Assembly (NCBI RefSeq): GCF_024362365.1
Contig: NZ_CP101464.1
Span: forward strand, 1,922,001 to 1,986,000
Direction of reading: 5' to 3'
Length of the DNA stretch: 64,000 nt
DNA from: Janibacter sp. CX7
Lineage (GTDB): Bacteria > Actinomycetota > Actinomycetes > Actinomycetales > Dermatophilaceae
Positions within the stretch are counted from its first letter, which is position 1. The number at the start of each line of letters is the position of its first letter. Positions 3,374 through 63,763 of this stretch are shown in pieces. The translations under genes were made by a program, and so were the position numbers. The notes below the pieces were generated by a model, which saw only the letters and a list, made by a program, of their open reading frames with translations, did not search any database and was not told where the DNA came from.

Positions 3374-3501
3374 TTCGTCGTGAGCGCGAAGGGAGGTCAC
3401 GACCCGGTCTCGACGCGGGCGCCGCAGCAACCCGCGAGTGCCCGGCGACGTCTGCGGCATCGGGTGGCACCACCGCCACCCCTGATGCAAGGGGACACAC
3501 G

Positions 3502-4104
3502 ATGACATCACGCACCACCACCGCACTGCTCGCAGCGACTCCGCTCGCGCTGGGCCTGGCCCTGGCCGCGGCGCCGCAGGCGAGCGCCGCGACGACACCG
3601 CCCGCCGACGCCGAGCTCCTCGTGCAGGTCGCCGACGTCTACTCGGGCCACCTCGAGGGCATCGCGGGCAACCGGCACCGCGTGCGGGTCGCCCAGGTCG
3701 ACGGCCGGACCACCGGCTTCGTCCAGTCCTGGACCTGCCCGTCGGAGGCGACGGTGACCACCCGCTGGGTCTCGCCGTCGTGCACGCACCGGTCGACCTT
3801 CAGCCTGCGGGAGCAGTGGGGCGCCCCGCCGCAGGCGCGAGTGAGCTCGACCGGGCGCTCGGGCGTCATCGCGGGCAAGCTCGTCGGGGTCAACCGCACG
3901 ACGGGGTGGCAGCGCTCCTTCACGGTCGACCTCACGATGCGGGCCGGCACCGGCGCGACGGCCGACCGCGACCCGGCACCCTCCGACGGCGAGAGCACGA
4001 CCGTGTGGTCGACGGCCACCTTCTCCGGCGACGTCTCGGGTGCCGACGTGTGGGTGAAGGGGACGCCGCAGGGCACCTCGAGCCTCTTCGGCTGGACGGA
4101 CTGA
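3502..4104 (+). CDS. Secreted protein of unknown function, tandem paralogue A
   Basis: 200 residues starting with a Sec signal peptide (hydrophobic core at residues 8-25, likely cleavage after ASA near 29). The mature part has two cysteines, in WTCPS and SCTHRS, probably forming a disulfide. Start ATG 3502 follows AAGGGGA. The next gene is clearly its paralogue. Shared blocks are GNRH, a TC/CTH cysteine pair, QWG-PP, SSTGRSGV, KLVG-NR-TG, a Trp-Ser-Thr-Ala block and a C-terminal FGWT. No catalytic motif was recognised; a small extracellular beta-rich domain is a guess. Confidence 0.75.
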   Translation: MTSRTTTALLAATPLALGLALAAAPQASAATTPPADAELLVQVADVYSGHLEGIAGNRHRVRVAQVDGRTTGFVQSWTCPSEATVTTRWVSPSCTHRSTFSLREQWGAPPQARVSSTGRSGVIAGKLVGVNRTTGWQRSFTVDLTMRAGTGATADRDPAPSDGESTTVWSTATFSGDVSGADVWVKGTPQGTSSLFGWTD

Positions 4105-4122
4105 CAGCTGCGTCCACCGTCA

Positions 4123-4151
4123 CGGGGAGGTCACGATCGGTGGCCTCCCCG
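4123..4151 (+). terminator. Hairpin after paralogue A
   Basis: CGGGGAGGTCAC (4123-4134) pairs with GTGGCCTCCCCG (4140-4151) over 12 positions with one G-T pair and a 5-base loop. It separates the two paralogous secreted-protein genes, so they are probably transcribed separately. Confidence 0.6.
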
Positions 4152-4808: not shown

Positions 4809-4835
4809 CGGGACTGGGGGTGTGCCCACGCATGG

Positions 4836-4847: not shown

Positions 4848-5456
4848 GTGGGCACCCCCTTCGTCAGGTCCGTGAGCAGCGACGAGCTGCACCGCTTCAG
4901 CAAGCAACCGCGCGCGGCCATCGAGCTCGTCGCCGGCCTTGGCGTGCGCGGTGATGCCCACGCCGGGACCCTCGTGCAGCACCGGTCCCGGGTGCGGCGC
5001 GACCCCAACCAGCCCAACCTGCGCCAGGTCCACCTCATCCAGGCCGACCTCCTCGAGGAGGCCCGAGCGGCCGGGCACGACATCGGCCCGGGCTCTCTCG
5101 GCGAGAACGTGCTCACCGACGGAGTCGACCTGCTCGCCCTGCCCGAGGGCACCCGCCTGCACCTGGGTGAGGCCGTCGTGCGGCTCACCGGGCTGCGCAA
5201 CCCCTGCCGGCAGATCGACGAGCACTCGCACGGGCTGCTCAAGGTCGTCGTCCGGCGCGTCGACGGCGTGGCCACCCGCACCGACTCGCAGGTCGAGCTG
5301 GGCCCCACGGGCGGCGTGCAGGCCCTCGACGGCGTCGGCATCGAGCGGCGGGCCGGCGTGATGTCGGTCGTCGAGGTCGGCGGCAGCGTGCGCCCGGGCG
5401 ACCCGATCGAGGTCGTGCTGCCGCCCGAGCCGCACACCCCGCTCGTCCCCGTCTGA
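4848..5456 (+). CDS. MOSC domain protein
   Basis: 202 residues of the MOSC family (molybdenum cofactor sulfurase C-terminal domain; YiiM-like stand-alone proteins belong here). The conserved cysteine is in LRNPCRQID near residue 124, preceded by the GENVLTDGVDL block. Such proteins use molybdenum cofactor or handle sulfur; the substrate cannot be told. The GTG start at 4848 is the first in frame and has a -10-like hexamer 12 bases upstream. A copy of the CGAAGGGRG word lies at codons 3-6 in reverse orientation. It is convergent with the glycerophosphodiesterase gene across a shared terminator. Confidence 0.85.
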   Translation: MGTPFVRSVSSDELHRFSKQPRAAIELVAGLGVRGDAHAGTLVQHRSRVRRDPNQPNLRQVHLIQADLLEEARAAGHDIGPGSLGENVLTDGVDLLALPEGTRLHLGEAVVRLTGLRNPCRQIDEHSHGLLKVVVRRVDGVATRTDSQVELGPTGGVQALDGVGIERRAGVMSVVEVGGSVRPGDPIEVVLPPEPHTPLVPV

Positions 5457-5531: not shown

Positions 5532-5570
5532 ACGAAGGGAGGTCCGCACCGGGTGCGGACCTCCCTTCGT
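5532..5570. terminator. Bidirectional terminator built from paired CGAAGGGAG words
   Basis: Perfect 19-bp inverted repeat with a one-base centre. The left arm begins ACGAAGGGAGG (5532-5550) and the right arm ends CCTCCCTTCGT (5552-5570). It lies between two convergent genes and can serve both. Confidence 0.85.
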
Positions 5571-6808: not shown

Positions 6809-6867
6809 GGGAGTCCCCCTTCGCCTCCGAGTCCCGGACCGGGGACGGCGACGGGCTGCCGAGGTCC

Positions 6868-8329: not shown

Positions 8330-8370
8330 CGAAGGGAGGGTGCGGCCGATGTGGCCGCACCCTCCCTTCG
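8330..8370 (+). terminator. argG terminator with paired CGAAGGGAG words
   Basis: Perfect 18-bp stem: CGAAGGGAGGGTGCGGCC (8330-8347) with its complement at 8353-8370, loop GATGT. It begins 22 bases after the argG stop. Confidence 0.85.
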
Positions 8371-9664: not shown

Positions 9665-10846
9665 GTGCTCGCCATCACCTGCCCCGGTCAGGGCTCCCAG
9701 ACGCCCGGCTTCCTCTCTCCATGGCTCGAGCTGCCCGGCGTGGCCGACCGCCTGCACTGGCTGTCCGCCGTCGCCGGCATCGACCTCGCCACCCACGGCA
9801 CGACGAGCGACGAGGAGACGATCAAGGACACGGCGGTCGCGCAGCCGCTCATCGTCGCCGCGGGCCTGCTGTCGCTGCTGGCGCTCTTCGAGCACCCGGC
9901 CGACGGCTTCCGCGTCGTCGGCGCCGGTGCCGGCCACAGCGTCGGTGAGATCACCGCGGCCTCGGCTGCCGGCGTCATCTCCGCCGAGCAGGCCATGGTC
10001 CTCGTCCGCGAGCGCGGTCGCGGCATGGCCGCCGCGGCACAGGCCACCCCCACCGGCATGAGCGCCGTCCTCGGTGGCGACCCCGACGAGGTGCTCACCG
10101 TCCTCGAGCAGCACGGCCTCACCCCGGCCAACGTCAACGGCGCCGGTCAGGTCGTGGCCGCCGGCACGATGGAGCAGCTCGCGGCCCTGGCCGAGGCCCC
10201 GCCGGCCAAGGCGCGGGTCATGCCCCTCAAGGTTGCCGGCGCCTTCCACACGGAGCACATGTCCCCCGCCGTCGCCGAGATGGGCCGCCTCGCCCGAGCC
10301 GTCTCGACCCACGACGCCCGGGTCCCGCTCGTCTCCAACGTCGACGGTGCCGTCATCCACTCCGGCCGCGAGGTGCTCTCGCGCATCGTCAGCCAGGTGA
10401 GCAACCCGGTGCGCTGGGACCTGTGCATGGAGACGCTCAAGGACCTCGGCGTCACCGGCGTCATCGAGATCCCTCCGGCCGGTGCCCTCACCGGTCTGGC
10501 CAAGCGCGGCCTCAAGGGTGTCGAGGTGCTCGCCCTCAAGACGCCCGACGACCTCGAGGCCGCCCACCGCATGGTGCGCGAGCACGGCTCGGCGCGGTCG
10601 GCCTCCCAGCCGACCTGGCGCCTGGTCACCGCGCCGGTCAAGGGCACCGTCGAGGTCGGCTCGAGCGCTCCCGGCGCGGCCGTCACCCCGGGCGACGTCG
10701 TCGCCCGCATCTCCTCCCTTCGCGACACGCTCGAGGTGCGGGCCGACCACGGCGGCACCGTCGTCGAGTGGCTCGTCGAGGACGGCGACCCGGTCTCCCC
10801 CGGCCAGCCCCTGCTGCGCCTGCACCCCGAGGGGTCGATCGCGTGA
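9665..10846 (+). CDS. fabD: Malonyl-CoA:ACP transacylase with C-terminal biotinyl/lipoyl-like domain
   Basis: 393 residues. Residues 1 to about 305 are a complete FabD, with nucleophile Ser in GHSVGE and catalytic His in AFHTEHM. It moves malonyl groups from CoA to AcpP. Residues about 316-393 form an extra barrel-sandwich hybrid domain (VTAPVKGTVEV ... LVEDGDPVSPGQPLLRL). Where biotin or lipoyl domains carry the modified Lys (EAMKM), this one has SSLRD, so it should not be modified. The CTCCCTTCG word lies exactly on that turn. FabD proteins are usually about 310 residues, so this is a real extension. GTG 9665 is the first usable start. fabH overlaps its stop by 4 bases. Confidence 0.95.
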   Translation: MLAITCPGQGSQTPGFLSPWLELPGVADRLHWLSAVAGIDLATHGTTSDEETIKDTAVAQPLIVAAGLLSLLALFEHPADGFRVVGAGAGHSVGEITAASAAGVISAEQAMVLVRERGRGMAAAAQATPTGMSAVLGGDPDEVLTVLEQHGLTPANVNGAGQVVAAGTMEQLAALAEAPPAKARVMPLKVAGAFHTEHMSPAVAEMGRLARAVSTHDARVPLVSNVDGAVIHSGREVLSRIVSQVSNPVRWDLCMETLKDLGVTGVIEIPPAGALTGLAKRGLKGVEVLALKTPDDLEAAHRMVREHGSARSASQPTWRLVTAPVKGTVEVGSSAPGAAVTPGDVVARISSLRDTLEVRADHGGTVVEWLVEDGDPVSPGQPLLRLHPEGSIA

Positions 10847-11917: not shown

Positions 11918-12169
11918 ATGGCATTCAGCGACCAGGAGATCCTCGACGGCCTCGCCGAGATCGTCTCGGAGGAGACCGGTGTCGACGCGTCCGAGGTGAC
12001 CGCCGACAAGACCTTCACGGACGACCTCGACGTCGACTCGCTGTCGATGATGACGATCGCCGTCACCGCCGAGGAGAAGTTCGGGGCCAAGATCCCCGAC
12101 GAGGAGGTCAAGAACCTCAAGACCGTCGGCGACGCCGTCAACTTCATCAAGGCCAACCAGCCGGCCTGA
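11918..12169 (+). CDS. acpP: Acyl carrier protein
   Basis: 83 residues, acidic. The phosphopantetheine attachment Ser41 sits in the DVDSLS motif. It carries growing acyl chains for FabD, FabH and FabF encoded on either side. Start ATG 11918 follows a strong GAAGGAG site. A terminator lies between acpP and fabF and could raise acpP over fabF, as expected for an abundant carrier. Confidence 0.97.
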   Translation: MAFSDQEILDGLAEIVSEETGVDASEVTADKTFTDDLDVDSLSMMTIAVTAEEKFGAKIPDEEVKNLKTVGDAVNFIKANQPA

Positions 12170-12179
12170 CCCGGTGACG

Positions 12180-12210
12180 TTCCCCCCTTCGTCACGAGCG
12201 AAGGGGGGAA
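12180..12210 (+). terminator. Internal terminator between acpP and fabF
   Basis: 12-bp stem TTCCCCCCTTCG (12180-12191) with CGAAGGGGGGAA (12199-12210), 7-base loop. The word order is reversed relative to the other terminators: the CCCCCTTCG arm comes first. It is probably partial, as fabF follows 37 bases later. Confidence 0.7.
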
Positions 12211-12247
12211 CCGCCCGGCCTCGTCCACCGACCCACAGGAGCCCCGC

Positions 12248-13498: not shown

Positions 13499-14934
13499 CC
13501 CGCCAGCCCAATGCCGCCTCCGCCGCGGTCGGCAAGCGCGTCAAGGTGCCCCGCGAGCAGGACCCGCGCAACCCCAACCACCGGATCGCTGACTTCGTCG
13601 ACGAGGGCTCGGTCGAGCTCCTCACCCCTGACGACGACTCGGGCATGCTCGCCGCGACGGGCACCGTGGGCGGCCAGCCGGTCGTCGTCTTCGCCTCCGA
13701 CGCGACGATCATGGGCGGCGCCATGGGCGTCGCCGGCTGCAAGGTCGTCGTCGCCGCCTACGAGCGCGCCCTCGCCGACGGCGTCCCCGTCGTCGGCCTG
13801 TGGCACTCCGGCGGGGCGCGCCTGCCCGAGGGGGTCGTCTCGCTACACGCCGTCGGCGAGGTCTTCGCGATCATGACCCGCGCGTCGGGCAAGATCCCGC
13901 AGATCTCCGTCGTCATCGGCGCCGCGGCCGGCGGTGCCGCCTACGGTCCCGCCCTCACCGACATCGTCATCCTCGCCCCGGAGGGGCGCATCTTCGTCAC
14001 CGGACCCGATGTCGTCCGGTCGGTCACGGGCGAGGACGTCGACGCCCTTCGCCTCGGTGGTCCCGAGCCGCACGGTCGCCGCTCCGGCGTCGTCCACGTG
14101 CTCGCCGAGTCCATCGACGACGCCTACGGCCGGGCCGGCACCCTGTGCCGCCTGCTGAGCGACCAGGGCGACTTCGACCTCGCGGCCGTCACCGATGTCG
14201 ACCTCGCCGAGCAGCTGCCGGAGTCGGCGAAGCGGGCCTACGACGTGCACCCCCTCGTCGAGCAGCTGCTCGACAGCGGCGAGGTGCAGGAGCTGCACGG
14301 CCGGTGGGCGCCCAACATCGTCACGACGCTCGGCCGCATGGGCGGACGCACCGTCGGCGTCATCGCCAACAACCCGATGCGCCTCGGCGGTTGCCTCGAC
14401 TCGTCGTCGGCGGAGAAGGCGGCGCGCTTCGTGCGCATGTGCGATGCCTTCGGCGTCCCGCTCGTCGTCCTCGTCGACGTGCCCGGCTACCTGCCCGGCG
14501 TCGGCCAGGAATGGGACGGCGTCGTGCGAAGGGGGGCCAAGCTCCTGCACGCCTTCGCCGAGGCCGTCGTCCCCCGGGTCACCGTCGTCACCCGCAAGAC
14601 CTACGGCGGTGCCTACATCGCGATGAACTCGCGCTCGCTCGGCGCGACGAAGGTCTTCGCCTGGCCGGAGGCGCACGTGGCCGTCATGGGCTCGGTCGCG
14701 GCCATCCGCATCCTGCACCGCCGACGGCTCGCCGAGGTCGACGAGTCGGAGGTCGCCGAGGTCGAGCAGCAGCTCGCCGACGAGCACGACCGGCTCTCGG
14801 GCGGTCTGCCGCGGGCGGTCGAGATCGGTGTCGTCGACGAGATCGTCGAGCCCACCCGCACCCGCTCGGCCGTCGCGACGGCCCTCGCGGAGGCGCCTGC
14901 TCGCCGCGGCGAGCACGGCAACATCCCGCTCTGA
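13495..14934 (+). CDS. accD: Acyl-CoA carboxylase beta (carboxyltransferase) subunit
   Basis: 479 residues with both halves of the carboxyltransferase fold. The N-terminal half has GGAMGVAGCK and the oxyanion glycine run GAAAGGAAYGPA; the C-terminal half has VDVPGYLPGVGQE and RKTYGGAYIAMNS. It transfers carboxyl from biotin to acetyl- or propionyl-CoA. Its place at the end of the FAS II operon parallels accD6 of mycobacteria, so supply of malonyl-CoA for FabD is the likely job. The biotinylated alpha subunit is not in the operon. Codons 345-347 are CGA AGG GGG, three rare codons supplied by one CGAAGGGGG word. Confidence 0.94.
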   Translation: MTRQPNAASAAVGKRVKVPREQDPRNPNHRIADFVDEGSVELLTPDDDSGMLAATGTVGGQPVVVFASDATIMGGAMGVAGCKVVVAAYERALADGVPVVGLWHSGGARLPEGVVSLHAVGEVFAIMTRASGKIPQISVVIGAAAGGAAYGPALTDIVILAPEGRIFVTGPDVVRSVTGEDVDALRLGGPEPHGRRSGVVHVLAESIDDAYGRAGTLCRLLSDQGDFDLAAVTDVDLAEQLPESAKRAYDVHPLVEQLLDSGEVQELHGRWAPNIVTTLGRMGGRTVGVIANNPMRLGGCLDSSSAEKAARFVRMCDAFGVPLVVLVDVPGYLPGVGQEWDGVVRRGAKLLHAFAEAVVPRVTVVTRKTYGGAYIAMNSRSLGATKVFAWPEAHVAVMGSVAAIRILHRRRLAEVDESEVAEVEQQLADEHDRLSGGLPRAVEIGVVDEIVEPTRTRSAVATALAEAPARRGEHGNIPL

Positions 14935-16687: not shown

Positions 16688-16738
16688 GGACGAAGGGGGC
16701 CGGCCACCTGCGCGAGGTGCGCTCGGCCCCCTTCGTCC
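16688..16738 (+). terminator. Hairpin between gluB and gluC with paired CGAAGGGGG words
   Basis: GGACGAAGGGGGCCG (16688-16702) pairs with CGGCCCCCTTCGTCC (16724-16738); an inner CACCT/AGGTG stem fills the loop. Inside the operon it would attenuate or stabilise, giving more binding protein than permease. Confidence 0.75.
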
Positions 16739-18347: not shown

Positions 18348-18388
18348 CGAAGGGAGGGGACGCGCGACTCGCGCGTCCCCTCCCTTCG
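18348..18388. terminator. gluABCD terminator with paired CGAAGGGAG words
   Basis: Perfect 18-bp stem: CGAAGGGAGGGGACGCGC (18348-18365) with its complement at 18371-18388, loop GACTC. It is shared with the convergent Rid-family gene. Confidence 0.85.
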
Positions 18389-20961: not shown

Positions 20962-21007
20962 GCACGAAGGGGGCTGCGCCAAGGAGGGTGCGCAGCCCCC
21001 TTCGTGC
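20962..21007 (-). terminator. Terminator of the DUF3145 gene with paired CGAAGGGGG words
   Basis: 17-bp stem GCACGAAGGGGGCTGCG (20962-20978) with CGCAGCCCCCTTCGTGC (20991-21007). Two shorter CGAAGGGC copies lie just beside it (20941-20960). The rest of the gap from 20738 to 20961 holds only the oxidase promoter region; no gene is seen. Confidence 0.8.
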
Positions 21008-21541: not shown

Positions 21542-21784
21542 CCTGATCCTCCTTGAGTGCGATGGACGTCTTCCCCAACGCCAGGCACTCCCTGCAAGGA
21601 CCGAACGGCTGCGGCGCAATGACACTCTGCGGCGTGCTGCTCGAGCGATATGTGCACGCGAACGTGCTTGTGCGGCCATTGTGCCCCAACTACCACAGGA
21701 GCACCAGCCCTCACCGTGGCCCCTCCCTCACCACGTGTCGCGCGGCGTGACGGGGTAACCTCACGCCGTCGCCTGCGGGCGAAG

Positions 21785-21861
21785 GGGGCGATAGCTCAGT
21801 CGGTCAGAGCAGCGGACTCATAATCCGTCGGTCCTGGGTTCAAGCCCCAGTCGCCCCACCA
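21785..21861 (+). tRNA. tRNA with CAT anticodon (elongator Met or lysidine Ile2)
   Basis: Complete cloverleaf: acceptor GGGGCGA/TCGCCCC, D-stem GCTC/GAGC, anticodon stem GCGGA/TCCGT with loop CTCATAA (anticodon CAT), T-arm CTGGG-TTCAAGC-CCCAG, discriminator A, and CCA encoded at 21859-21861. A CTCATAA loop is shared by elongator tRNA-Met and tRNA-Ile2, so identity is open. It is not initiator-like. A CGAAGGGGG word (21780-21788) overlaps its 5' end. Confidence 0.95.
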
Positions 21862-22590: not shown

Positions 22591-22758
22591 CCGGCCGCGC
22601 ACTGAGCACGTGCAGCGGGGGGTGAGTGGCCTCCTGACCGAGGCGTCCGACAAAGATCCCGATGGGGTCTGGTGGTTGTCGGCGGCTGGCTCTAATCTTC
22701 TCCTCGGTCGGGGGGCTGCCCCGCCACACTCCCTTCGCTCATCCGAGGTCATCCACCC

Positions 22759-23985: not shown

Positions 23986-24030
23986 GTCACCGGGCTGCGA
24001 GGATGGGCACGTCCGACGAAGGGGGACGAC

Positions 24031-26177: not shown

Positions 26178-26689
26178 CAGGCCTCGCGCCCGACCTGCTC
26201 CGCCAGTCGCGCTGCGACCTCCTCGGTCGCGGCCACGAGCTGGGGGTCGTCGGGGTCGCAGCCGCGGCCGACGATCGTCTGGGCGAGGACCCGTCCGGAC
26301 GCGAGGTCCTTGCGCAGGACGACGCGCGCTCGGCGCGCCCGGTCGAGCGTGACCTCCTCGACGAGCACGACGCTCGCCTGCACCCGCTCGTGGAAGGCGT
26401 CGGGCACCCCGCCGGCCTCGGGGATCGTCCAGCTGCCGGCCGGCCCGCCGTCGACCCAGGTCACGGTGAGGACGTCGGTCTCGGGGTCCCACCGGCCGCG
26501 GTCGACGAGGTGCCAGGCCCTCCCTTCGGCCAGCGGACCACCGGTGACCACGAGCCGGAACGAGGTGATGACGACGACCTCCTCACCGGCCGCCGCCGTC
26601 GCGAGGACCCGCTCGCCGCGGCCGAGCTCGACACCTGGGGGGACGGGCACCGCTCGTGAGCGCTGCCACCGGGACCACACGGGACTCAC
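26177..26689 (-). CDS. Conserved hypothetical protein between dnaG and the oxygenase
   Basis: 170 residues, no signal peptide or membrane segment. Alternating hydrophobic strands (GEEVVVITSFRLVVTGGPL, TVTWVDGGPAGSWTIPEAGG) suggest a beta-rich fold, followed by a charged helical C-terminus. Function not recognised. The GTG start overlaps the dnaG stop (GTGA) and its own stop overlaps the next start, so all three are translationally coupled. Confidence 0.75.
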   Translation of the reverse strand: MSPVWSRWQRSRAVPVPPGVELGRGERVLATAAAGEEVVVITSFRLVVTGGPLAEGRAWHLVDRGRWDPETDVLTVTWVDGGPAGSWTIPEAGGVPDAFHERVQASVVLVEEVTLDRARRARVVLRKDLASGRVLAQTIVGRGCDPDDPQLVAATEEVAARLAEQVGREA

Positions 26690-31711: not shown

Positions 31712-31809
31712 CGGCCCGGCGCGCCGTCTCCCTTCGCGGAACCCCCGATCACCGGGTCCGGCAGGTCAGTAGCCTCGGGTGACGCCCGCCACACCCCCGG
31801 AGGTCCCCC

Positions 31810-44302: not shown

Positions 44303-44691
44303 CCGACACCCGCACCCGCCGCCCCACCCGGCAGCGCACCGCCATCGAGGCCGACATCGACCGGTCCGACGAGTTCCGCTCGGCCCAGGAGGTGCACGCG
44401 AGCCTCGTCGCCGGCGGCGACAAGATCGGTCTGGCGACGGTCTACCGGACGCTCCAGGCGATGGTCGACGAGGACGCGCTGGACTCCCTTCGCACCGACG
44501 ACGGGGAGATCGTCTACCGCCGGTGCAGCACCGGCCACCACCACCACCTCGTCTGCCGCGACTGCGGCCGCACGGTCGAGGTCGAGGGCCCGGCGGTCGA
44601 GCGGTGGGCCGACAAGGTGAGCGCCGAGCACGGCTTCACCGACGTGTCGCACACGCTCGAGCTCTTCGGGCGCTGCGCGGACTGCGGCTAG
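44299..44691 (+). CDS. zur: Zinc uptake regulator, Fur family
   Basis: 130 residues. Winged helix (SAQEVHASL ... IGLATVYRTLQAM), then metal sites: HHHH at 80-83, and CxxC pairs C86/C89 and C126/C129 that hold structural zinc. It is co-transcribed with znuACB and should repress the operon at the two boxes before znuA when zinc is sufficient, so the regulator is autoregulated. The only CTT among its eight leucine codons lies in a CTCCCTTCG word (44484-44492). It ends 4 bases into the convergent amidotransferase gene. Confidence 0.93.
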   Translation: MTDTRTRRPTRQRTAIEADIDRSDEFRSAQEVHASLVAGGDKIGLATVYRTLQAMVDEDALDSLRTDDGEIVYRRCSTGHHHHLVCRDCGRTVEVEGPAVERWADKVSAEHGFTDVSHTLELFGRCADCG

Positions 44692-46505: not shown

Positions 46506-47263
46506 CCGGTCCTCTGCGATGGGGTGGGGTCGGGGCGGGTGCGGTCGACGTGACGAAGGGAGAGCACCCCGCGCTCGAGGTGCCACTGGAGGAAGGCCGC
46601 GGTCAGGCCGGAGCCCTCGCGCCGGTGGCGGTCGAGGGAGGTGTCAGCGGCTGCCCAGTCGCCGGTGAGCAGGGCGGCGAGCAGCTCGAGGGTCTCGGGT
46701 GCGGGCGCGGAGGCGCCGGGCACGCGGCAGCTGCGGCAGAGCACGCCGCCGTGGGCGACGTGGAAGGCGCGGTGCGGGCCCGGCTCGCCGCACTGGGCGC
46801 AGTCGTGGAAGCTCGGCGCCCAGCCGGCGACGGCCAGGGCACGCAGGAGGTAGGCGTCGAGGCTGAGCTCGGGGGCGTGCTCGGCGTGGGCGAGCGAGCG
46901 CAGCGCGCCGGCGAGCAGGAGGAACTGCTGCACCGCCATCTCGCCCTCCTCGGTGAGCCGGTCGGCGGTCTCGAGCATCGCCGAGGCAGCGGTCCAGCGC
47001 GAGTAGTCGCGGGCGATCTGGTCACCCCACGGGTCGAGCGACTCGGCCTGGGTCACGGTGTCGAGGTTGCGCCCCTCGTAGCACTGGAGGTCGACGTGCA
47101 TGCCCGGCTCGAGGCGGGCGCCGAACTTCGACTTCGTGCGGCGGACCCCCTTCGCCACTGCGCGGACCTTGCCCCGGCCGCGCGTGAGCACGGTGATGAT
47201 CCGGTCGGCCTCACCCAGCTTGTGGGTGCGCAGGACGACCCCGGAGTCGCGGTAGAGGGGCAC
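46502..47263 (-). CDS. recO: DNA repair protein RecO
   Basis: 253 residues. N-terminal OB fold ([39 protein letters not shown]), helical middle and a zinc site with CAQC and CRSC. It works with RecR to load RecA at gaps. GTG 47263 is chosen because a GACAAT hexamer lies 12 bases upstream and the conserved start is VPLYRDSG. It is divergent from alkB; a LexA box lies between the two, closer to alkB. Confidence 0.94.
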
Positions 47264-47269: not shown

Positions 47270-47275
47270 ATTGTC
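47270..47275 (-). promoter_or_regulatory. -10 hexamer, leaderless start of recO
   Basis: GACAAT on the minus strand lies 12 bases before GTG 47263. A CGAAGGGAG word (47283-47275) abuts it. Confidence 0.45.
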
Positions 47276-47322
47276 TCCCTTCGCACCGACACGACACGCA
47301 CCCCCACGCCGAGTCCAACCTC

Positions 47323-47358: not shown

Positions 47359-47982
47359 ATGCAGGCGCTCCAGTCCTCGCTCTTCGACACGGCCGACTCC
47401 CCGACGCTCGGTGACCTCGACCGGCGGCACCGCCGCTTCCTCGACGGCACCGCCTGGCTCGACCTGCTGCCCGGGTGGGCCTGCGGCAGCGACGAGGTCC
47501 TGACGACGCTGCTGCACGAGGTGCCGTGGCGGGCCGAGCGCCGGCAGATGTACGACTCCGTCGTCGACGTGCCTCGCCTGCAGTGCTTCTACGGCGAAGG
47601 GGAGGCCCTCCCCCACCCGCTGCTCACCGACATGCGCGAGCAGCTCTCGGCCCACTACGCGATCGAGCTCGGCGAGCCCTTCGTCACCGCCGGCCTGTGC
47701 CTCTACCGCGACGGCGAGGACTCCGTCGCGTGGCACGGCGACCGGATCGGCCGCAGCCGCGAGCAGGACACGATGATCGCCATCGTCTCCCTCGGCTCGG
47801 CGAGGCACCTCTCCCTTCGCCCTCGCGATGGCGGTGTCTCGCAACGGGTCTCGCTCGGCCACGGAGACCTCGTCGTCATGGGCGGCGCCTGCCAGCGGAC
47901 CTGGGACCACGCCGTGCCCAAGACCTCGGCCGCCGTCGGGCCCCGCGTCTCGATCCAGTTCCGCGTGGCCGGAGTCCGCTGA
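47359..47982 (+). CDS. alkB: AlkB-like 2-oxoglutarate/Fe(II) DNA repair dioxygenase
   Basis: 207 residues. It removes alkyl groups from bases such as 1-methyladenine and 3-methylcytosine by oxidation. Iron ligands are His126 and Asp128 (WHGDRIG) and His184 (WDHAVPK), with Arg196 and Arg202 (RVSIQFR) for 2-oxoglutarate and catalysis. The fold is of the ALKBH2/3-like type. The promoter carries a perfect LexA box, so induction by SOS is predicted; E. coli alkB belongs to the Ada response instead. Confidence 0.93.
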   Translation: MQALQSSLFDTADSPTLGDLDRRHRRFLDGTAWLDLLPGWACGSDEVLTTLLHEVPWRAERRQMYDSVVDVPRLQCFYGEGEALPHPLLTDMREQLSAHYAIELGEPFVTAGLCLYRDGEDSVAWHGDRIGRSREQDTMIAIVSLGSARHLSLRPRDGGVSQRVSLGHGDLVVMGGACQRTWDHAVPKTSAAVGPRVSIQFRVAGVR

Positions 47983-50985: not shown

Positions 50986-51040
50986 CTCCTCGCCTCGGGT
51001 GACCATGACCCGGGTCACGATGCGGACGAAGGGGGTCCCG

Positions 51041-51724: not shown

Positions 51725-53313
51725 CACTGCTCCTCGCTGCGCGCGGCGCCCAGGGACGCGGTGAAGACGGCCCCGAAGTCACCCTGGGCGACCGACACCC
51801 GGCCACCGCCCCGGGAGCATACGGCCTGCACGAGCGCGAGGCCGATGCCCCGACCGGCGGCCCCGCTCGGCTTCGTCGACCACCCGCGCTCGAAGACCCG
51901 GTCGACGTCCTCCGGCGGGATGCCTGCGCCCGTGTCGGCGACCCGCACGAGCGGCCCGGTCTCGTCCGTCGTCAGGCGCACCGAGGTCTCGTGGCCGCCA
52001 TTGGCCCGGGTCGCGTCGAGCGCGTTGTCGATGAGGTTGCCGAGCACGGTGATGACGTCGGCGGCCGTGTCGGGCGCCAGGCGCGGCAGGTGCGACTCGG
52101 GCTCGATCGACAGGTCGATGCCGATCTCGGAGGCGGCGGTGACCTTGGCGATGAGCAGCGCGGCCACCCGGGGGTCCTCGACGTAGCGCGTCACCGTCTC
52201 GCTGATCTCGGTGCGGCGACGGTTGACGTCGGCGATGAGCGCGACGACCTCGTCGTACTCCCCCAGCTGCACCAGCCCCGAGATCGTGTGCAGCCGGTTG
52301 TCGAACTCGTGGGTCTGCGCCCGCAGCGCATCGGTGATGCTCGCCTGGGCCGAGACCTGGCTCTGCAGCGCGAGCAGGTCGCTGCGGTCGACCATCGTCG
52401 TCACCGTGCCGACCGGCTTGTCGTCGAAGAAGGTGCGCCGTCGGGTGAGCACGAGGGTCCGGTCGTCGACGACGAGCAGGGTCGGGTCGCTGTCACCCTC
52501 GCTGGCGAGGAAGGCGCCGAGCCCGCCGCGCAGGTCGAGGTCGATCACCCGTCGCCCGATGGCGGACTCCCCCACACCGAGCAGCTGCCGGGCGGAGGTG
52601 TTGACGAGCGTGAGCTGGCCTGTGGCACTCACCCCGACGACGCCCTCGTGGATGCCGGTGAGCAGGGCCTCCTGGTGGTCGGCGAGCCGGGCGATCTCGG
52701 CCGGCTCGAGGCCGCGCGTCTGCCGCCGGATGAAGCGGGAGAGCCCGAAGGCGCCCGCCAGTCCGAGCGCGGCGGCCGCACCGAGGAAGAGCACGAGGTC
52801 GGGCGCCGCGTCGAGCAACCGCTCCGACCACGGCGGGTAGTCCTCGACGACCAGCGCGACCCCCTGCACCTGCTCGTCGTCGCCGATGACCGGTGCCTGG
52901 CCACCGACGCCCTTGTCCCCGTCGAGCACGATGTCGCCCGACCACGAACGACCGTCGGTGACCGGCACGCCGAGGGTCGCCCGCGTCCCGAGGTCGGTGG
53001 CATCGGTCGAGGCGAAGACCGTGCCGTCGCGGCCGACGAGCTGCACGTGCCGGGCACCGGACAGGCTCGCCGCCCGCCCCAGCTGGGCCTCGAGGGCGCG
53101 ACGGTTACCCCCTTCGACCAGCTCGGAACGCACGACGGGCGTTGCGGCGAGGGACTCGGCGACCGCGAGCATGCGGGTCTGCCGTGAGGAGCGGAAGTCG
53201 GAGGTCGACTGCTGGACGGTGATCGCGGCGACCACGACGAGCACGAGGAGCAGCGCGACCACCTGCCACACGAGCAACTGGGCCGCGAGGCTCCACCGGG
53301 ACCGTGACCGCAA
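51724..53313 (-). CDS. Sensor histidine kinase, CitA/DcuS family
   Basis: 529 residues from the chosen start. First helix near residue 10-32, extracytoplasmic PAS-like sensor (about 33-170), second helix (about 175-200), cytoplasmic PAS, then the phospho-His in THEFDNRLHTISGL and an ATPase domain with N-box NLIDNALDAT and G-boxes. It senses a carboxylate in known relatives. The frame is open up to ATG 53385, but an AAAGGAGG ribosome site lies nine bases before TTG 53313 and would otherwise have to encode Arg-Arg as AGG AGG. I therefore prefer TTG. Confidence 0.88.
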   Translation of the reverse strand: MRSRSRWSLAAQLLVWQVVALLLVLVVVAAITVQQSTSDFRSSRQTRMLAVAESLAATPVVRSELVEGGNRRALEAQLGRAASLSGARHVQLVGRDGTVFASTDATDLGTRATLGVPVTDGRSWSGDIVLDGDKGVGGQAPVIGDDEQVQGVALVVEDYPPWSERLLDAAPDLVLFLGAAAALGLAGAFGLSRFIRRQTRGLEPAEIARLADHQEALLTGIHEGVVGVSATGQLTLVNTSARQLLGVGESAIGRRVIDLDLRGGLGAFLASEGDSDPTLLVVDDRTLVLTRRRTFFDDKPVGTVTTMVDRSDLLALQSQVSAQASITDALRAQTHEFDNRLHTISGLVQLGEYDEVVALIADVNRRRTEISETVTRYVEDPRVAALLIAKVTAASEIGIDLSIEPESHLPRLAPDTAADVITVLGNLIDNALDATRANGGHETSVRLTTDETGPLVRVADTGAGIPPEDVDRVFERGWSTKPSGAAGRGIGLALVQAVCSRGGGRVSVAQGDFGAVFTASLGAARSEEQ

Positions 53314-53416: not shown

Positions 53417-54406
53417 ATGACCCCCGGACCCCGACGCCGCACCGTGCTGCTCGCCTCGCTCGGCGCGCTGGCGCTCCCTTCGCTCGCCGCGTGCGGCGTG
53501 ACGCGAGGCGACGACGCCGGCTCGACACGGCTGCGCATGATGATCCCCAACTCCCCCGGCGGCGGCTACGACCTCACCGGCCGCCGAGCGGTCGGCGTCA
53601 TGGAGGACACCGAGATCACCAAGCGCTTCGAGGTCTTCAACGTCATCGGCGCGGGCGGCACCGTCGCCATGGCGCGGCTGGCCAACGAGCGCGGCAACGA
53701 GGACCTCATGATGTCGATGGGGCTCGGCGTCGTCGGCGCGACCCTGACCAACAGGTCCCAGGCACGCGTGTCCGGGATGACCCCGCTCGCCCGGCTCGTC
53801 CAGGAGTCCGAGGGCGTCATCGTGCCCGCCGACTCCCCGCACAAGACCATCGACGACCTCGTCGCCGCCTGGAAGAAGGACCCCAAGGCGGTGAGCATCG
53901 GTGGCGGCTCCTCCCCCGGCGGCCCCGACCATCTCTTCCCCATGGAGTTCGCCAAGGCGGTCGGCATCGACCCGCGCGAGGTCAACTACGTCACCTACGA
54001 CGGTGGCGGTGACCTGCTCCCCGCCCTCCTCGGCTCGAAGATCAAGGCCGGCATGAGCGGCCTCGGCGAGTACGCCGAGCAGATCAAGAAGGGCCAGGTC
54101 AAGGTGCTCGCCGTCTCCGGCGAGAAGCGCATGTCCGGCATCGACGCGCCGACGCTCAAGGAGTCGGACATCGACCTGACCTTCATCAACTGGCGCGGGA
54201 TCCTCGCCCCGCCGGAGATCTCCGCGGAGCGGCGCGATCAGCTCATCGACCTGCTCCAGCAGATGCACGACACCCCGGAGTGGAGGGACGTGCTCACCAA
54301 GAACAACTGGGACGACGCGTGGATGACCGGCGACGAGTTCGGCGACTTCCTCGCCTCCCAGGACAAGCGCGTCGAGACGACCCTGAAGGAGCTGGGCCTG
54401 CTGTGA
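53417..54406 (+). CDS. tctC: Tripartite tricarboxylate transporter, substrate-binding lipoprotein
   Basis: 329 residues. Lipobox LAAC (Cys near 26) after a twin-Arg-rich start, and a Bug/TctC fold with PNSPGGGYDLTGR, GAGGTVAMARLAN and a VNYVTYDGGGDLLPALLG segment. It binds citrate or a related carboxylate outside the membrane and feeds TctA/TctB. It is divergent from the CitAB-like regulators with about 100 bases between. That gap holds CACCAT repeats that may be the operator. Confidence 0.9.
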   Translation: MTPGPRRRTVLLASLGALALPSLAACGVTRGDDAGSTRLRMMIPNSPGGGYDLTGRRAVGVMEDTEITKRFEVFNVIGAGGTVAMARLANERGNEDLMMSMGLGVVGATLTNRSQARVSGMTPLARLVQESEGVIVPADSPHKTIDDLVAAWKKDPKAVSIGGGSSPGGPDHLFPMEFAKAVGIDPREVNYVTYDGGGDLLPALLGSKIKAGMSGLGEYAEQIKKGQVKVLAVSGEKRMSGIDAPTLKESDIDLTFINWRGILAPPEISAERRDQLIDLLQQMHDTPEWRDVLTKNNWDDAWMTGDEFGDFLASQDKRVETTLKELGLL

Positions 54407-56441: not shown

Positions 56442-56830
56442 CCATCGTCATCGGATACACCCCGGAGCCGGCCAGCGCCCAGGCTCTCGAGCGCGGCCTG
56501 ACCGAGGCCCGGCTGCGCGGCGAGGACGTGCTCCTCGTCAACGCGACGAAGGGAGACGCCTTCGTCGACACCCGCTACGGCCAGCAGGGCGACATCGCCC
56601 GGGTCCGCGAGCAGCTCGAGGCGTCGGGTCTCACCTTCGAGATCAGCCAGCCGATGGGACCCGACATCGCCGACCTCGTCCTCGACGAGGCCGAGCGGGT
56701 CGGCGCCTCGCTCATCGTCATCGGCCTGCGGCACCGCACGCCGGTCGGCAAGCTCCTGCTCGGCTCGACCGCCCAGCGGATCCTGCTCGACGCCACCTGC
56801 CCGGTGCTGGCGGTCAAGCCTCCGCGCTGA
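56438..56830 (+). CDS. Universal stress protein (UspA family)
   Basis: 130 residues, one Usp domain. The ATP-binding tail is [18 protein letters not shown], which keeps the G-2x-G-9x-G/S pattern loosely. It is coupled to tctA by a 4-base overlap, an arrangement seen in some actinobacterial tct operons; a role in tuning the transporter is inferred. It carries one CGAAGGGAG word (56547-56555). Confidence 0.9.
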
Positions 56831-56855
56831 GGCCGCGACCCACCGCTCGACAAGA

Positions 56856-56904
56856 AAAACTGCCCCTTCGCAAGAGTTCCAAACTCGTGCGAAGGGGCAG
56901 TTTT
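56856..56904. terminator. Bidirectional terminator between the Usp gene and asd
   Basis: 17-bp stem AAAACTGCCCCTTCGCA (56856-56872) with TGCGAAGGGGCAGTTTT (56888-56904); the loop has an inner GAGTT/AACTC stem. The T-run makes it one of the few classical terminators here. It contains the near-match CGAAGGGGC in both arms. Confidence 0.9.
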
Positions 56905-56944
56905 CCGGGTCACCCGAGAATCGTGCGGCCCGTGGGGTTGCGGG

Positions 56945-58050: not shown

Positions 58051-59877
58051 TCAGGCGGTCGGCGTGTCGTCCGTCCGCGTGTCCGTGTCGCCCTGCTCGG
58101 TGGTCGTCGAGGGGCCACCGTTGGCGACGACCGGCACGACCTTGTCGCGGTCGATGCCCGCGCCGGGCTCGGCATGGTCGATCGACAGGACGAAGTCGTC
58201 GCCGTGCTCCTTGACCCCCGCGACGACGGCCTGCTTGAGGGCCTCGCGGGCGTAGGCGCGGCGCACCGCCATCGGGTCGGTCTGCAGATCCTTGACCAGT
58301 GCGACCGCCATGCCGATCATGATCAGCACGAAGGGCAGGGCCGCGATGATCGTGATCTGCTGCAGACCGGTCAGTGAGTCCTCGCCGCCGATCGTGAGCA
58401 TGATCGCCGCGGCCGCACCCGTGGCGACACCCCAGAAGACGACCGTGAACTTGTTGGGCTCGAGCGTGCCGCGCTCGCTCAGCGAGCCCATGACGATCGA
58501 GGCCGCGTCGGCACCCGAGACGAAGAAGATCGCCACGAGGACCATGACGAGGATCGAGGTGACCCCCGCCCAGGGCATCGAGTCGAGGAGCGCGAAGAGC
58601 GTGCTCTCCTCGCCGTCGCCGAACTTGTCGAGCGTCGCGCCCATCTCCTGCGCCTTGATGGCGGCGCCACCGAAGATCGCGAACCAGATGAGGCTCACCG
58701 TGCTCGGGACGAGCAGGACGCCGGTGACGAACTCACGGATGGTGCGGCCGCGGGAGATGCGGGCGATGAACATGCCGACGAAGGGGGTCCAGCTGACCCA
58801 CCAGGCCCAGTAGAAGATCGTCCATCCGGACAGCCACGACTTGATGCCGTGCTCGCCCTGCGCGTTGGTGCGCGCGGAGTACTCCATGAGGTGGTGGAAG
58901 TAGGTGCCGAGCGACGTCGGGACGAGGTTGAGGATGAAGATCGTCGGGCCGAGGACGAAGACGAAGAGCGCCAGGACGAAGGCCAGCACCATGTTGGTGT
59001 TGGACAGCCACTGGATGCCCTTCTCGACGCCGGACACGGCGGAGAAGATGAAGCAGATGGTCAGCACCACGATGATCAGCACGAGCACCGTGTTGGTCAC
59101 GTCGTCGGCCCAGCCGACGATCTTGGCACCGGAGGCGATCTGCAGGGCGCCCAGGCCCAGCGAGGTCGCCGAGCCGAAGAGCGTGGCGAAGATCGCGAAG
59201 ATGTCGATGACCTTGCCCACCGGGCCGTTGACCTGGCGCTTGCCGATGAGCGGCTCGAAGACCGCGCTGATCGTCAGGCCGCGGCCCTTGCGGAAGACGC
59301 CGTAACCGATGGCCAGACCGGCCACCGTGTAGATCGCCCACGGGTGCAGGGTCCAGTGGAAGAGCGTGGTCGCCATCGCGGTGCGGGTCGAGCTGTCGTT
59401 GCCCGCCTCACCGGTGCCGGGCGGCGGGGTGATGTAGTGGGCCAGCGGCTCGGCCGCACCCCAGAACATCAGGCCGATGCCCATGCCGGCGGAGAACATC
59501 ATCGCGATCCACGAGATGGTGCGGAACTCCGGCTCCTCGCCGTCGGCGCCGAGCGGGATGTTGCCGTACTTGCTCGCCGCGAGCCAGATGACGAAGAAGA
59601 CGAAGCCGGTGGACGCGAGGGCGAAGAGCCAGCCGGTGTTGGTCACGACCCAGTCCAGGCCGCTGGCCGAGGCATCGGACAGCGACGAGGTGCTGATGAC
59701 GCCCCAGAGCACGAAGGCGAGGGACAGCACGGCGGTGATGCCGAAGACGATCCAGTCGATCCCCAGCTTGTCCTGCTTGCGGATGATCCGGGGCTCGAGA
59801 GCCGGGTGGTCCACCCGGCGGGTGTCGCGCGGCGGCGCGTTGCGTCCGGAGGTCGAGGTCTGCGTAGGTTCAGTCAC
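58051..59877 (-). CDS. BCCT family betaine/choline/carnitine transporter
   Basis: 608 residues, twelve helices. The glycine-rich helix GMGIGLMFWGAAEP and the Trp-rich signature WTIFYWAWWVSWTPFVGMFIAR match BetP-like sodium-coupled uptake of compatible solutes. A charged C-terminal tail of about 80 residues could be the osmosensor, as in BetP. GTG 59877 is the likely start. The 145-base gap before it holds two TCGTGACC copies (60004 and 60015) and no gene. Confidence 0.93.
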   Translation of the reverse strand: MTEPTQTSTSGRNAPPRDTRRVDHPALEPRIIRKQDKLGIDWIVFGITAVLSLAFVLWGVISTSSLSDASASGLDWVVTNTGWLFALASTGFVFFVIWLAASKYGNIPLGADGEEPEFRTISWIAMMFSAGMGIGLMFWGAAEPLAHYITPPPGTGEAGNDSSTRTAMATTLFHWTLHPWAIYTVAGLAIGYGVFRKGRGLTISAVFEPLIGKRQVNGPVGKVIDIFAIFATLFGSATSLGLGALQIASGAKIVGWADDVTNTVLVLIIVVLTICFIFSAVSGVEKGIQWLSNTNMVLAFVLALFVFVLGPTIFILNLVPTSLGTYFHHLMEYSARTNAQGEHGIKSWLSGWTIFYWAWWVSWTPFVGMFIARISRGRTIREFVTGVLLVPSTVSLIWFAIFGGAAIKAQEMGATLDKFGDGEESTLFALLDSMPWAGVTSILVMVLVAIFFVSGADAASIVMGSLSERGTLEPNKFTVVFWGVATGAAAAIMLTIGGEDSLTGLQQITIIAALPFVLIMIGMAVALVKDLQTDPMAVRRAYAREALKQAVVAGVKEHGDDFVLSIDHAEPGAGIDRDKVVPVVANGGPSTTTEQGDTDTRTDDTPTA

Positions 59878-60958: not shown

Positions 60959-62247
60959 GCCCCGATCTGGTCGTGCTCGCGTGCCTGGTCGTCGGCGGGG
61001 TCGACCCGCTCGACGATGACCGTCGCGATGCGGTGCTGTCGTCCCGACATCTTCTCAGCCGTGAGGGAGAGACCGCCCACCTCGCAGCGGGCGCCGACGA
61101 TCGGCACCCGTCCGGTGATCTTGCCGATGAGGCCGCCGACGGTGTCGACCTCCTCCTCGTCGATCGTCACCTCGAAGAGCTCGGCGAGGTCGTCGACGTG
61201 CATGCCGGCCGGCACCCGCGTGCGGCCGTCGTCGAGCTCCTCGACCCCGGGCCCCTCGCGGTCGTACTCGTCGGTGATCTCGCCGACGATCTCCTCGAGG
61301 ATGTCCTCGATCGTCACCAGGCCGGCGGTGCCGCCGTACTCGTCGACGACGATCGCGGCGTGGATCTGGTCGCGCTGCATCTCGCGCAGCAGCTGGTCGA
61401 CGGGCTTGCTGTCGGGGACGAAGGGGGCCGGCCGCATGAAGTCCTCGACGGCCCGGTCGCGCACCTCCTCGTCGGCGAGCAGCCGGCGCACGACGTCCTT
61501 GAGGTAGAGCAGGCCGACGATGTCGTCGCTCGACTCCCCGACGACCGGGACCCGGGAGAACCCCGAGCGGATGAAGAGGTTGAGCGCCTTGCGCGCCGGC
61601 TTGTCCGACTCGATGGTGATCATGTCGGTCCGCGGCACCATCACCTCGCCGGCAAGGGTGTCACCGAGCTCGAAGACCGAGTGGAGCATGTCGCGCTCCT
61701 CGTCCTCGATGAGCTCCGACTCCCCCGCGAGATCGAGCAGGTCACGCAGCTCCGCCTCGGAGCGGAAGGGCCCGTCACGGTAGCCACGGCCCGGCGTGAC
61801 GGCATTGCCGATGGTGACGAGCAGGCGGGCAACCGGCCCGAGGACCCGCCGCAGCCCGACGACGAAGGGGGCGGCCGCCAGGGCCACCGCGGTGCTGTGC
61901 TGCTGGCCCAGGGTGCGCGGCGAGACGCCGACGAGCACGAAGGTCACGACGACCATGATCGCCGCCGACACGAGCAGCGCCACCCAGGTGCGCTCGACCT
62001 CCTCGACGACGACGAGCGTGATGAGCACGGCGGCACTCGCCTCGGCGGTCGCGCGGAGGAAGGCGAGCACGGAGATGTGCCCCGCGCTGTCGGCGAGGAC
62101 CTGGCGCAGGGCCGCGGCGCCGCGCCGCCCTTCGCTCTCGGCCTCGTCGGCCGCGACCCGCGACGCGGAGATGATCGCGGCGTCGGCGAGGGTGAGGACG
62201 AAGGCGGCGACGATCGCGGCGACCGCGCCGACGAGCAGGCTCGTCAC
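60955..62247 (-). CDS. CNNM/CorC-type protein (DUF21, CBS pair, transporter-associated domain)
   Basis: 430 residues. The N-terminal DUF21 membrane domain (residues 1 to about 150) is followed by two CBS domains ([55 protein letters not shown]) and a C-terminal CorC_HlyC domain. Relatives export magnesium or are annotated as hemolysins; the former is more likely. GTG 62247 overlaps the ybeY stop. It holds two CGAAGGGGG words in the minus-strand CCCCCTTCG sense (61419, 61863). Confidence 0.92.
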
Positions 62248-62714
62248 GCCTCGGCCTCCCGGCCCCGCCCGGCGAGGAAGGTGAGCAGGAGCTGGCGCTG
62301 CAGCTCGAACATCTCGCGCTCCTCCTCCGGCTCGGCGTGGTCGTAGCCGAGCAGGTGGAGGATGCCGTGGGTCGTGAGCAGCAGCATCTCCTCGATCGCA
62401 GCGTGACCGGCCGTCACCGCCTGCTTCTCGGCGACGGAGGGGCACAGCACGATGTCGCCGAGGACGCCCTCCATCGGCGCCTCGCCCTCGCGCCCGGGCC
62501 GCAGCTCGTCCATGGGGAAGCTCATGACGTCGGTCGGGCCCGCGAGGTCCATCCACTGCTCGTGCAGGACGGTCATCGTCGCCTCGTCGACGAAGCGGAT
62601 GCACAGCTCGGCCTGCGGGTGCACCCGCATCTGCTCGAGCACATAGCGGCTGATGTCGACGAACTCGGTCTCGTCGACGACGTGGTCGGTCTCGTTGAGC
62701 ACGTCGATGCTCAT
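62244..62714 (-). CDS. ybeY: Endoribonuclease YbeY
   Basis: 156 residues. Zinc-dependent RNase for 16S rRNA 3' maturation and ribosome quality control. The H3 zinc motif [11 protein letters not shown] is intact. ATG overlaps the phoH stop by four bases and its own stop overlaps the next start, so phoH-ybeY-CNNM-era form one coupled operon. Confidence 0.96.
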
Positions 62715-63763
62715 GCGCGCTCCCCCTTCGTGGCGTCGTAGCGGTCGTAGGCACCGACGATCTCGCCGACGAGGCGGTGGCGCACGACGTCGGCGGCGTC
62801 GAGGTGCGCGAAGTGCACGCCGTCGATGTCGGTGAGGATGCGCTGGACCACCTTGAGCCCGGACTGGGTGCCGCCGGGCAGGTCGACCTGGCTGGTGTCC
62901 CCCGTGACGACCATCTTGGAGCCGAAGCCGAGGCGGGTGAGGAACATCTTCATCTGCTCGGGCGAGGTGTTCTGCGCCTCGTCGAGGATGATGAAGGAGT
63001 CGTTGAGCGTGCGACCGCGCATGAAGGCCAGCGGCGCCACCTCGATGGTCCCGGCGGCCATGAGCCGCGGGATCGTCTCGGGGTCGATCATGTCGTGCAG
63101 CGCGTCGTAGAGCGGGCGCAGGTAGGGGTCGATCTTGTCGTTGAGCGTGCCGGGCAGGAAGCCGAGCTTCTCCCCCGCCTCGACCGCCGGCCGGGTGAGG
63201 ATGATCCGGTTGACCTGCTTGGCCTGCAGGGCCGCCACGGCCTTGGCCATGGCGAGATAGGTCTTGCCGGTGCCGGCCGGGCCGATGCCGAAGACGACGG
63301 TGTTGTCGCCGATCGCGTCGACGTAGTGCTTCTGCCCCAGCGTCTTGGGCCGGATCGTGCGGCCGCGGTTGGAGACGATGTTGGTCGTCAGCACGTCGGC
63401 GGGCCGCTCGCGGGTCTGGCCGCGCAGCATGGTGATCGAGCGCTCGACGGCGTCCCTGTTGAGGGGCTGCCCGGCCTCGAGGATCTCGATGAGCTCGTCG
63501 AGCAGGCGGTCGATGACCTCGAGGTCACCGCTCGGCCCCTGGAGGCGGAACTCGTTGCCGCGCACGAGGATCTCGGTGCGCGGGAAGGCTCGCTCCATCG
63601 TCCGCAGGAGCTCGTCGGTCGGGCCGAGGAGGCTGACCATCTGGATGTTGTCGGGCAGGACGATGGTCTGCTGGACCCGGGGGGCGGTGCCGGGGGCACC
63701 CGCGCGGGGGTCGTCGGTGATCGCGTCGAGGGCGCGCAGGTCGGGCTGGTCTGATGAGGGCAT
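62711..63763 (-). CDS. phoH: PhoH-like ATPase
   Basis: 350 residues. An N-terminal KH-like segment ([20 protein letters not shown]) is followed by the PhoH domain with Walker A GPAGTGKT and Walker [15 protein letters not shown]. Widely conserved next to ybeY and probably linked to RNA metabolism. A TAGAAT -10 hexamer 16 bases before ATG 63763 gives a very short leader. Confidence 0.94.

Follow-up and report, generated by a model that had tools for sequence, protein, structure and literature searches.

What could maintain a word of nine bases, CGAAGGGRG, at dozens of places and in both orientations along a single stretch of actinobacterial DNA? The question was raised by a first-pass annotation of 64,000 bp from the chromosome of Janibacter sp. 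CX7 (NZ_CP101464.1, positions 1,922,001 to 1,986,000; this whole stretch is called the window here), which had counted 23 plus and 26 minus copies, regarded the word as strongly over-represented and proposed a word of the DNA-uptake type. Strict copies in the window number 50; the plus count of 23 stands, while the minus count rises by one to 27, given that the span reported at the time started at 3387 and omitted a copy at 2980-2988. Dinucleotide shuffles of the window (100 in number) contained 1.54 +/- 1.13 copies on average and five at most. Both forms of the word, CGAAGGGGG with 28 copies against 1.6 expected under an order-2 Markov model and CGAAGGGAG with 22 against 1.4, are the two top 9-mers of the window by over-representation in this model. 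On the chromosome, a single contig of 3,229,343 bases, we counted 2601 copies (1289 forward and 1312 reverse), or one per 1.24 kb, against 20 (8 forward and 12 reverse) for the same word read backwards. A whole-genome count near expectation, named beforehand as a result that would speak against the word, was not found, the count being about 130 times that of the reversed control. The dispersed over-representation is thus confirmed as real, and it is far stronger genome-wide than in the window. We consider it likely, with a probability of roughly 0.65, that CGAAGGGRG serves the Janibacter lineage as a word for the uptake of self-DNA and is a Gram-positive counterpart of the uptake signal sequence (USS) of Haemophilus and the DNA uptake sequence (DUS) of Neisseria.

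Finer counts were made in two samples: a first, smaller part of the chromosome (464 kb), used for the flanks and a first strand count, and 804 kb composed of 38 stretches including the window, with 653 copies of the word, to which the counts below refer unless stated otherwise. Genes in the larger sample were called by a simple codon-usage script, so that the split into coding and intergenic copies is approximate. In the smaller sample, G and then A or G are favoured directly before the core, and the flanks share no common sequence beyond about two bases; the fuller form of the word is GRCGAAGGGRG. Perfect copies outnumber one-off copies, with 653 against 634 over the 50 one-off words. Five word-free genera lead one to expect about 486 one-offs, and in this GC-rich background the margin is small. 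Of the 634, 114 belong to CGAAGGGGA, a one-off form which is itself enriched (12.5 expected), and most other one-off forms stay within about twofold of expectation.

The copies show no preference for either replication strand. The origin was placed at chromosome position 1 from genes recognised by eye, a DnaA-like one followed by DnaN- and RecF-like ones. On this basis the leading strand has 325 of the 653 copies (49.8%, 95% confidence interval 45.9-53.7%), and polarity is absent with each of three assumed terminus positions. A small leading-strand excess had been hinted at by the first strand count in the 464-kb sample (202 of 379, p 0.22) and, among the matches listed, by 100 forward copies in the first 195 kb; it was gone in the larger sample. 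Both the near-equal orientation noted at the outset (1289 and 1312 genome-wide) and the lack of co-orientation with replication hold, and a segregation word of the type of the FtsK-orienting polar sequences (KOPS) or SpoIIIE recognition sequences (SRS) is ruled out because origin-to-terminus polarity is missing. Even spacing, which had also been claimed, is weakly borne out, and not at the strength suggested. Counts per 20 kb are near Poisson (variance/mean 1.13), and after merging of close pairs the coefficient of variation of the gaps is 0.87 against 0.95 +/- 0.04 for random placement with the same merging, a value as low being reached in 14 of 1000 placements. Gaps below 300 bp make up 15.0% against 17.5% in random placement (33 of 1000 as extreme). 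The spacing thus seems slightly more regular than random.

As the annotation had stated, the copies are spread over genes and non-coding DNA, with 447 of 653 in coding sequence, 204 in intergenic sequence and two on gene edges, corresponding to densities of 0.62 per kb in coding and 2.42 per kb in intergenic DNA. Within genes, the word is kept against codon bias. It takes up 929 of 239,429 codons (0.39%) and yet accounts for 79 of 265 CTT and 77 of 434 GAA codons; many copies thus make use of otherwise rare codons.

Close neighbours are almost without exception inverted. Among copies with starts less than 60 bp apart, 35 pairs are plus-minus, 18 minus-plus, one plus-plus and none minus-minus, that is, 53 inverted pairs against one direct pair. 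The window contains eight close pairs, six of them intergenic: 5533-5569 (arms 5533-5541, plus, and 5561-5569, minus), 8330-8370 after argG (8330-8338, plus, and 8362-8370, minus), 12183-12207 upstream of fabF (12183-12191, minus, and 12199-12207, plus), 16691-16735 (16691-16699, plus, and 16727-16735, minus), 18348-18388 between convergent predicted genes (18348-18356, plus, and 18380-18388, minus) and 20965-21004 (20965-20973, plus, and 20996-21004, minus). Folded as RNA with short flanks, these six gave -31.5 to -52 kcal/mol with z scores of -4.2 to -8.7. The other two pairs are intragenic, at 37553-37604 (37553-37561, minus, and 37596-37604, plus) and 41909-41966 (41909-41917, minus, and 41958-41966, plus). 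Of the 35 plus-minus pairs, 22 have a predicted gene 3' end no more than 150 bp away; some of the intergenic word hairpins probably serve as terminators.

The word is confined to a narrow group of genomes. We searched 58 genomes, namely 16 of the genus including CX7 (labelled G000; the other G numbers below denote relatives), 20 of other genera of the family and 22 others of the order. All 16 Janibacter genomes carry 894-2601 copies (894-2412 in the 15 congeners); in all 42 other relatives, the counts of 20-113 lie between half and roughly three times those of the reversed controls and reveal no expansion. Among 197 genomes of the class, five of them from this family, the word is expanded only in CX7 and in G100, a genome of another genus of the same family with 2091 copies; the remaining ones have 1-251 copies, the high values belonging to large genomes with raised controls. 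G100, which may be a relative of Marihabitans, and G001, the congener with the fewest copies, favour CGAAGGGGK. A scan of named genomes for inverted word pairs gave at least 80 loci and is rich in chance pairs. Among the 80 matches listed, nine Janibacter loci and one Marihabitans locus hold 4-11 copies in 7-8 kb, although in one of these (L022) the four copies amount to no more than two pairs. The other 70 loci reach five at most, and 53 of them contain just the two copies that define them. Over 5.1 kb, the Janibacter sp. Soil728 locus is 85% identical to one of the CX7 stretches sampled. A scan of viral contigs with one open reading frame of the window found no match.

Conservation of the sites, which had been put forward as a check, was followed in the region around a carboxyltransferase-like gene, retrieved from all 15 congeners (from three as shorter pieces). 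Of the 50 sites in the window, 22 fell within this analysis, three of them without an aligned congener. The word is kept in 69 of 144 aligned comparisons (48%), and the 9-mer is identical in 64 of the 144, against 35% over all sampled positions and 21-32% at the flanks. Five coding sites passed the alignment filter, two of them with broad congener coverage. At one of the two, in the carboxyltransferase-like gene (14527-14535, plus), the residues R-R-G are found in 15 of 15 aligned congeners and are encoded by the word (CGA AGG GGG) in four and by other codons in 11; at the other, in a fabD-like gene (10714-10722, minus), S-S-L-R is found in 14 of 14 and the word, with CTT, in five. Both alignments are free of gaps, and the gene copies differ by silent point changes, not by insertion. 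Taken together, 20 of 28 comparisons with non-word alleles leave the protein the same, all 20 at these two sites. In the hairpin upstream of fabF, both arms are altered together in two congeners (G009 and G004), and in that at 20965/20996 the arms change jointly in G009, G010 and G012 and not in G013. Such a pattern suggests a patchy gain and loss of copies among congeners, of the kind expected from biased allele transfer.

Related genera appear to have words of their own. From 19 genomes of other genera we sampled 40-80 kb each; in nine of them the leading word ends in CATAC or CATCC. CGGCATAC leads in G019, G022 (1.3 per kb), G026, G030 and G032 and is weaker in G033, CGCATAC leads in G035, CGGCATCC in G031, and GAGGCATCC in G055, which belongs to another family (f19). 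The leading word of G018, CGACATAC, is no stronger than the best words of word-free samples and is doubtful, and nine samples revealed no such leading word (G016, G017, G023, G024, G025, G028, G029, G034 and G036). In 248 genomes of the order, GCGGCATACG is expanded only in ten, from four genera of this family, with 81-881 copies in roughly balanced orientation, and does not exceed 25 copies elsewhere. GAGGCATCCG, counted in 149 genomes of the order, shows an expansion to 64-1196 copies in eight of the nine f19 genomes, the ninth having 25, and does not exceed 34 copies outside; G055 (L182-L185) has 1196 copies against two of the reversed control, and the word is expanded in seven of the eight other genomes of its family. 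GGCATAC exceeds 1000 copies in three of 296 genomes of the class, all of this family, with lesser excesses of two to three times the control elsewhere, and is near background in Janibacter (44 against 31). The words of the sister genera and of the other family are roughly balanced between strands, and f19 may well represent a second actinobacterial family with an uptake-like word.

Three concatenated proteins from each of 19 genomes gave a midpoint-rooted tree with low support (44-75) for many inner branches. In it, CGGCATAC occurs on either side of the family, interspersed with word-free genera, and the three Janibacter genomes form one clade. This distribution would be consistent with a word of the CATAC/CATCC type that is old, was often lost and was replaced in Janibacter; the words of neighbouring genera and of the second family are perhaps dialects with the same job. 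One observation on the word of G030 may be added. There, 24 of 26 copies of GCGGCATA lie within a longer common stretch of about 22 bases (approximately GAGCgaGCyCAGCGGCATACGG; L166-L169), 16 of the 26 being in predicted genes. The reverse complement of the stretch holds ATGCCGCTGR, close to the Neisseria DUS ATGCCGTCTGAA as given in PMC5031613, a likeness that is due to either chance or convergence.

Genes for a putative transformation machinery are present in CX7. The gene for ComEA, with SLBB and helix-hairpin-helix domains, adjoins that for ComEC (L127:13166-16344), and matches to ComEC and LeuS recur in 17 of 20 other loci compared. A Tad locus (L255:8603-12377) codes for two T2SSF proteins and a T2SSE ATPase, together with a TadE-like protein that falls just short of the Pfam threshold; its small DUF4244 protein resembles a Flp pilin by eye, and one further product matched nothing. 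Of the 58 relatives, 57 have ComEC and 57 have Tad-type T2SSF, including word-free genera; being near universal, the two do not discriminate and are permissive evidence only. A type IVa pilus was considered as carrier of a word receptor and rejected, as its markers PilM_2 and N_methyl gave no match in CX7; each is found in 12 of the 58 relatives, N_methyl in a single congener (G011).

How these features could be linked can be outlined by a model of biased transformation. Cells would take up DNA by means of the Tad pilus and ComEA/ComEC, and a surface receptor would favour fragments that bear the word. This preference would give word-bearing alleles a better chance than word-free ones of entering genomes by recombination. 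The word would accumulate in both orientations, within genes where the change is silent and between genes as the two inverted arms of hairpins. If the specificity of the receptor drifts, related genera are expected to have different words. The competence of the cell, the uptake bias and the receptor (the Tad pilin or ComEA) are parts of this model that we infer, and the status of the word is that of an element working like DUS or USS, not of a proven member. The original proposal of an uptake-type word gains support from the restriction to a clade, the inverted hairpin pairs, the silent differences in genes and the other words in relatives.

The closest resemblance is to the USS of the Pasteurellaceae. 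Haemophilus influenzae carries 1471 copies in 1.8 Mb, and USS and DUS share regular spacing, oppositely oriented pairs, a preference for non-coding DNA and an excess of perfect over one-off copies, according to PMC1626085. Like the Janibacter word, USS has a 9-base core, occurs about once per 1.2 kb on both strands and in opposed close pairs, and is denser in non-coding DNA with most copies nevertheless genic and with few one-offs (PMC1626085); it also comes in clade-specific types (PMC2346458). The Janibacter word differs by its Gram-positive host, its unrelated letters, the lack of matches to type IVa pilus markers, the slightness of its regular spacing and an uptake that is putative. With the DUS of the Neisseriaceae it shares the presence of dialects across a family and inverted pairs tied to terminators, whereas DUS dialects have a CTG core (both from PMC3630211) and the word of Janibacter has no evident core in common with the words of sister genera. 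Within the same phylum, Micrococcus luteus is transformed by means of comEA/comEC and Tad clusters without type IV pilus genes (PMC4322843); unlike in our case, neither "uptake sequence" nor "sequence-specific" occurs in the main text of that paper, and the M. luteus genome itself was not scanned for a word. Competence of M. luteus is reported to be under the control of amino-acid limitation. Most testable genomic marks of an uptake word are present in CX7, regular spacing slightly so, and no markers were found of the kind of pilus in which the Neisseria receptor resides.

Several points weigh against a word for self-DNA uptake. The Janibacter word lacks an obvious core shared with its relatives' words, its regularity of spacing is slight, being equalled in 14 of 1000 random placements, and 13 of 35 plus-minus pairs have no predicted gene 3' end within 150 bp. 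Broad congener alignments are available at two coding sites only, and at the other three all eight non-word alleles alter the protein. ComEC and T2SSF are near universal among the 58 relatives including genera in which no word was found, and the type IVa markers PilM_2 and N_methyl, on which the search was based (ComP itself was not searched for), are without a match in CX7. Haemophilus and Neisseria have an outer membrane, and this organism has none. The Neisseria receptor ComP is reported to be a type IV minor pilin. We found no literature that joins Janibacter with natural transformation, and there was no report of an uptake word in Actinobacteria among the literature matches listed, most subscription papers and bioRxiv preprints lying outside the search. 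In a review (PMC5031613), the Pasteurellaceae and Neisseriaceae are the two families named as having evolved sequence-specific uptake.

Of the two alternatives named by the first-pass annotation, a Chi-like site and a protein-binding site, neither is favoured, polarity being absent and the pairs inverted. The strongest rival, though in our view an unlikely one, is a recombination word at which a RecBCD or AdnAB-type enzyme would switch from the degradation of self DNA to recombination; its rank rests on the retention of RecB in the genus. Chi sites, too, are short, numerous and G-rich and mark self DNA, and RecB (TIGR00609) scores above the curated cut-off in 14 of 16 Janibacter genomes including CX7. 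Chi of Escherichia coli is strongly strand-skewed, however, whereas the Janibacter word is not (325 of 653), and close pairs in the form of inverted hairpins are unexpected for a signal read on one strand. Nor does the word match the distribution of RecB in the family (RecC, RecD and AdnAB were not searched for): RecB is above the cut-off together with a word in G026 and G035, above it without a word in G024, G025, G028 and G034, and not above it in G019, G022, G030, G031, G032 and G033, which have words. Chi acting through RecBCD was rejected on these grounds, as sister genera with RecB lack the Janibacter word and some RecB-free genera have words. In one congener, G007, RecB matches fall into three pieces (G007:C1:3126988-3130340), none above the cut-off, so that its recB may be broken; this genome still has 1853 copies of the word.

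Slightly less probable again is that the word is bound by a protein with a regulatory role or one that organises the chromosome, such as a nucleoid protein, a loader of SMC or an FtsK/SpoIIIE-like translocase. The slightly regular spacing and the intergenic enrichment would fit a nucleoid protein, and GAAGGG resembles the recognition words of FtsK/SpoIIIE, but the word cannot point a translocase since it has no polarity, direct pairs are nearly absent where inverted ones abound, and differing words in sister genera as well as placement in silent codons fit poorly with one conserved nucleoid protein. It is also quite improbable that we are dealing with terminator hairpins or mobile repeats of the repetitive extragenic palindromic (REP) kind that have the word in their arms by chance: the strong folding of the inverted pairs and the 22 of 35 plus-minus pairs near gene 3' ends would agree with this, while 447 of 653 copies lie within predicted genes, sites 14527 and 10714 differ between species by silent substitution without gaps, and the flanks have nothing in common beyond about two bases. 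Least probable of all, and hardly to be expected, is that a restriction system, or another defence that tells self from non-self, recognises the word and protects DNA marked with it; a clade-specific word on both strands could act as such a mark of self, but restriction sites are usually avoided, not accumulated.

Turning back to the uptake of self-DNA, a wider reading would see sequence-specific uptake with changing dialects in Gram-positive Actinobacteria, in which the Tad pilus and ComEA/ComEC replace the type IVa pilus, secretin and ComP. The trait would be old in the order, given the words ending in CATAC or CATCC (CGGCATAC, CGCATAC, CGGCATCC and GAGGCATCC) in at least two families, and Janibacter would have swapped in an unrelated word; towards this we lean by a narrow margin over even odds. 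If true, self-tagging of DNA evolves repeatedly and without need of secretin or ComP in bacteria that have no outer membrane, and the practical rule for transforming these organisms would be to have the right word on the DNA. With several words within one family, the co-evolution of word and receptor would become testable. Even if uptake is the wrong answer, about 2600 copies of a clade-specific word, many of them at rare codons, call for an explanation.

The remaining copies in the window stand singly. CGAAGGGGG is found on the minus strand at 2980-2988 (coding), 4855-4863 (coding and kept in four of five aligned congeners), 6815-6823, 27246-27254, 34991-34999, 35916-35924, 47146-47154, 53108-53116 and 62722-62730, and on the plus strand at 21780-21788, 24017-24025, 25333-25341 (coding), 31404-31412, 35151-35159, 51027-51035, 58779-58787, 61419-61427 and 61863-61871. 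Plus-strand copies of CGAAGGGAG lie at 3387-3395, 27356-27364, 32326-32334, 46554-46562 and 56547-56555, and those on the minus strand at 22729-22737, 26520-26528, 31139-31147, 31728-31736, 39131-39139, 44484-44492, 47275-47283, 47811-47819 and 53474-53482. Two structures in the window deserve mention on their own. The two-word hairpin upstream of fabF (12165-12215), with the word in both arms kept in 12 of 13 aligned congeners, is a candidate regulatory or processing site. An inverted repeat at 56849-56911, whose arms contain the one-off form CGAAGGGGC and which stands beside A and T runs, is perhaps a classical terminator built on the word.

Another element is dispersed in CX7 as well: a long palindrome built around ACCCTAGGGT (approximately AACYCTGCARRACCCTAGGGTYYTGCAGRGTT), with 33 copies in the 804 kb and none in the window. 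The copies, including those at L120:9734, L121:16288, L256:7137 and L269:1535, are often paired 42 bases apart, and the 9-mer ACCCTAGGG of the palindrome is 163-fold over expectation in this sample.

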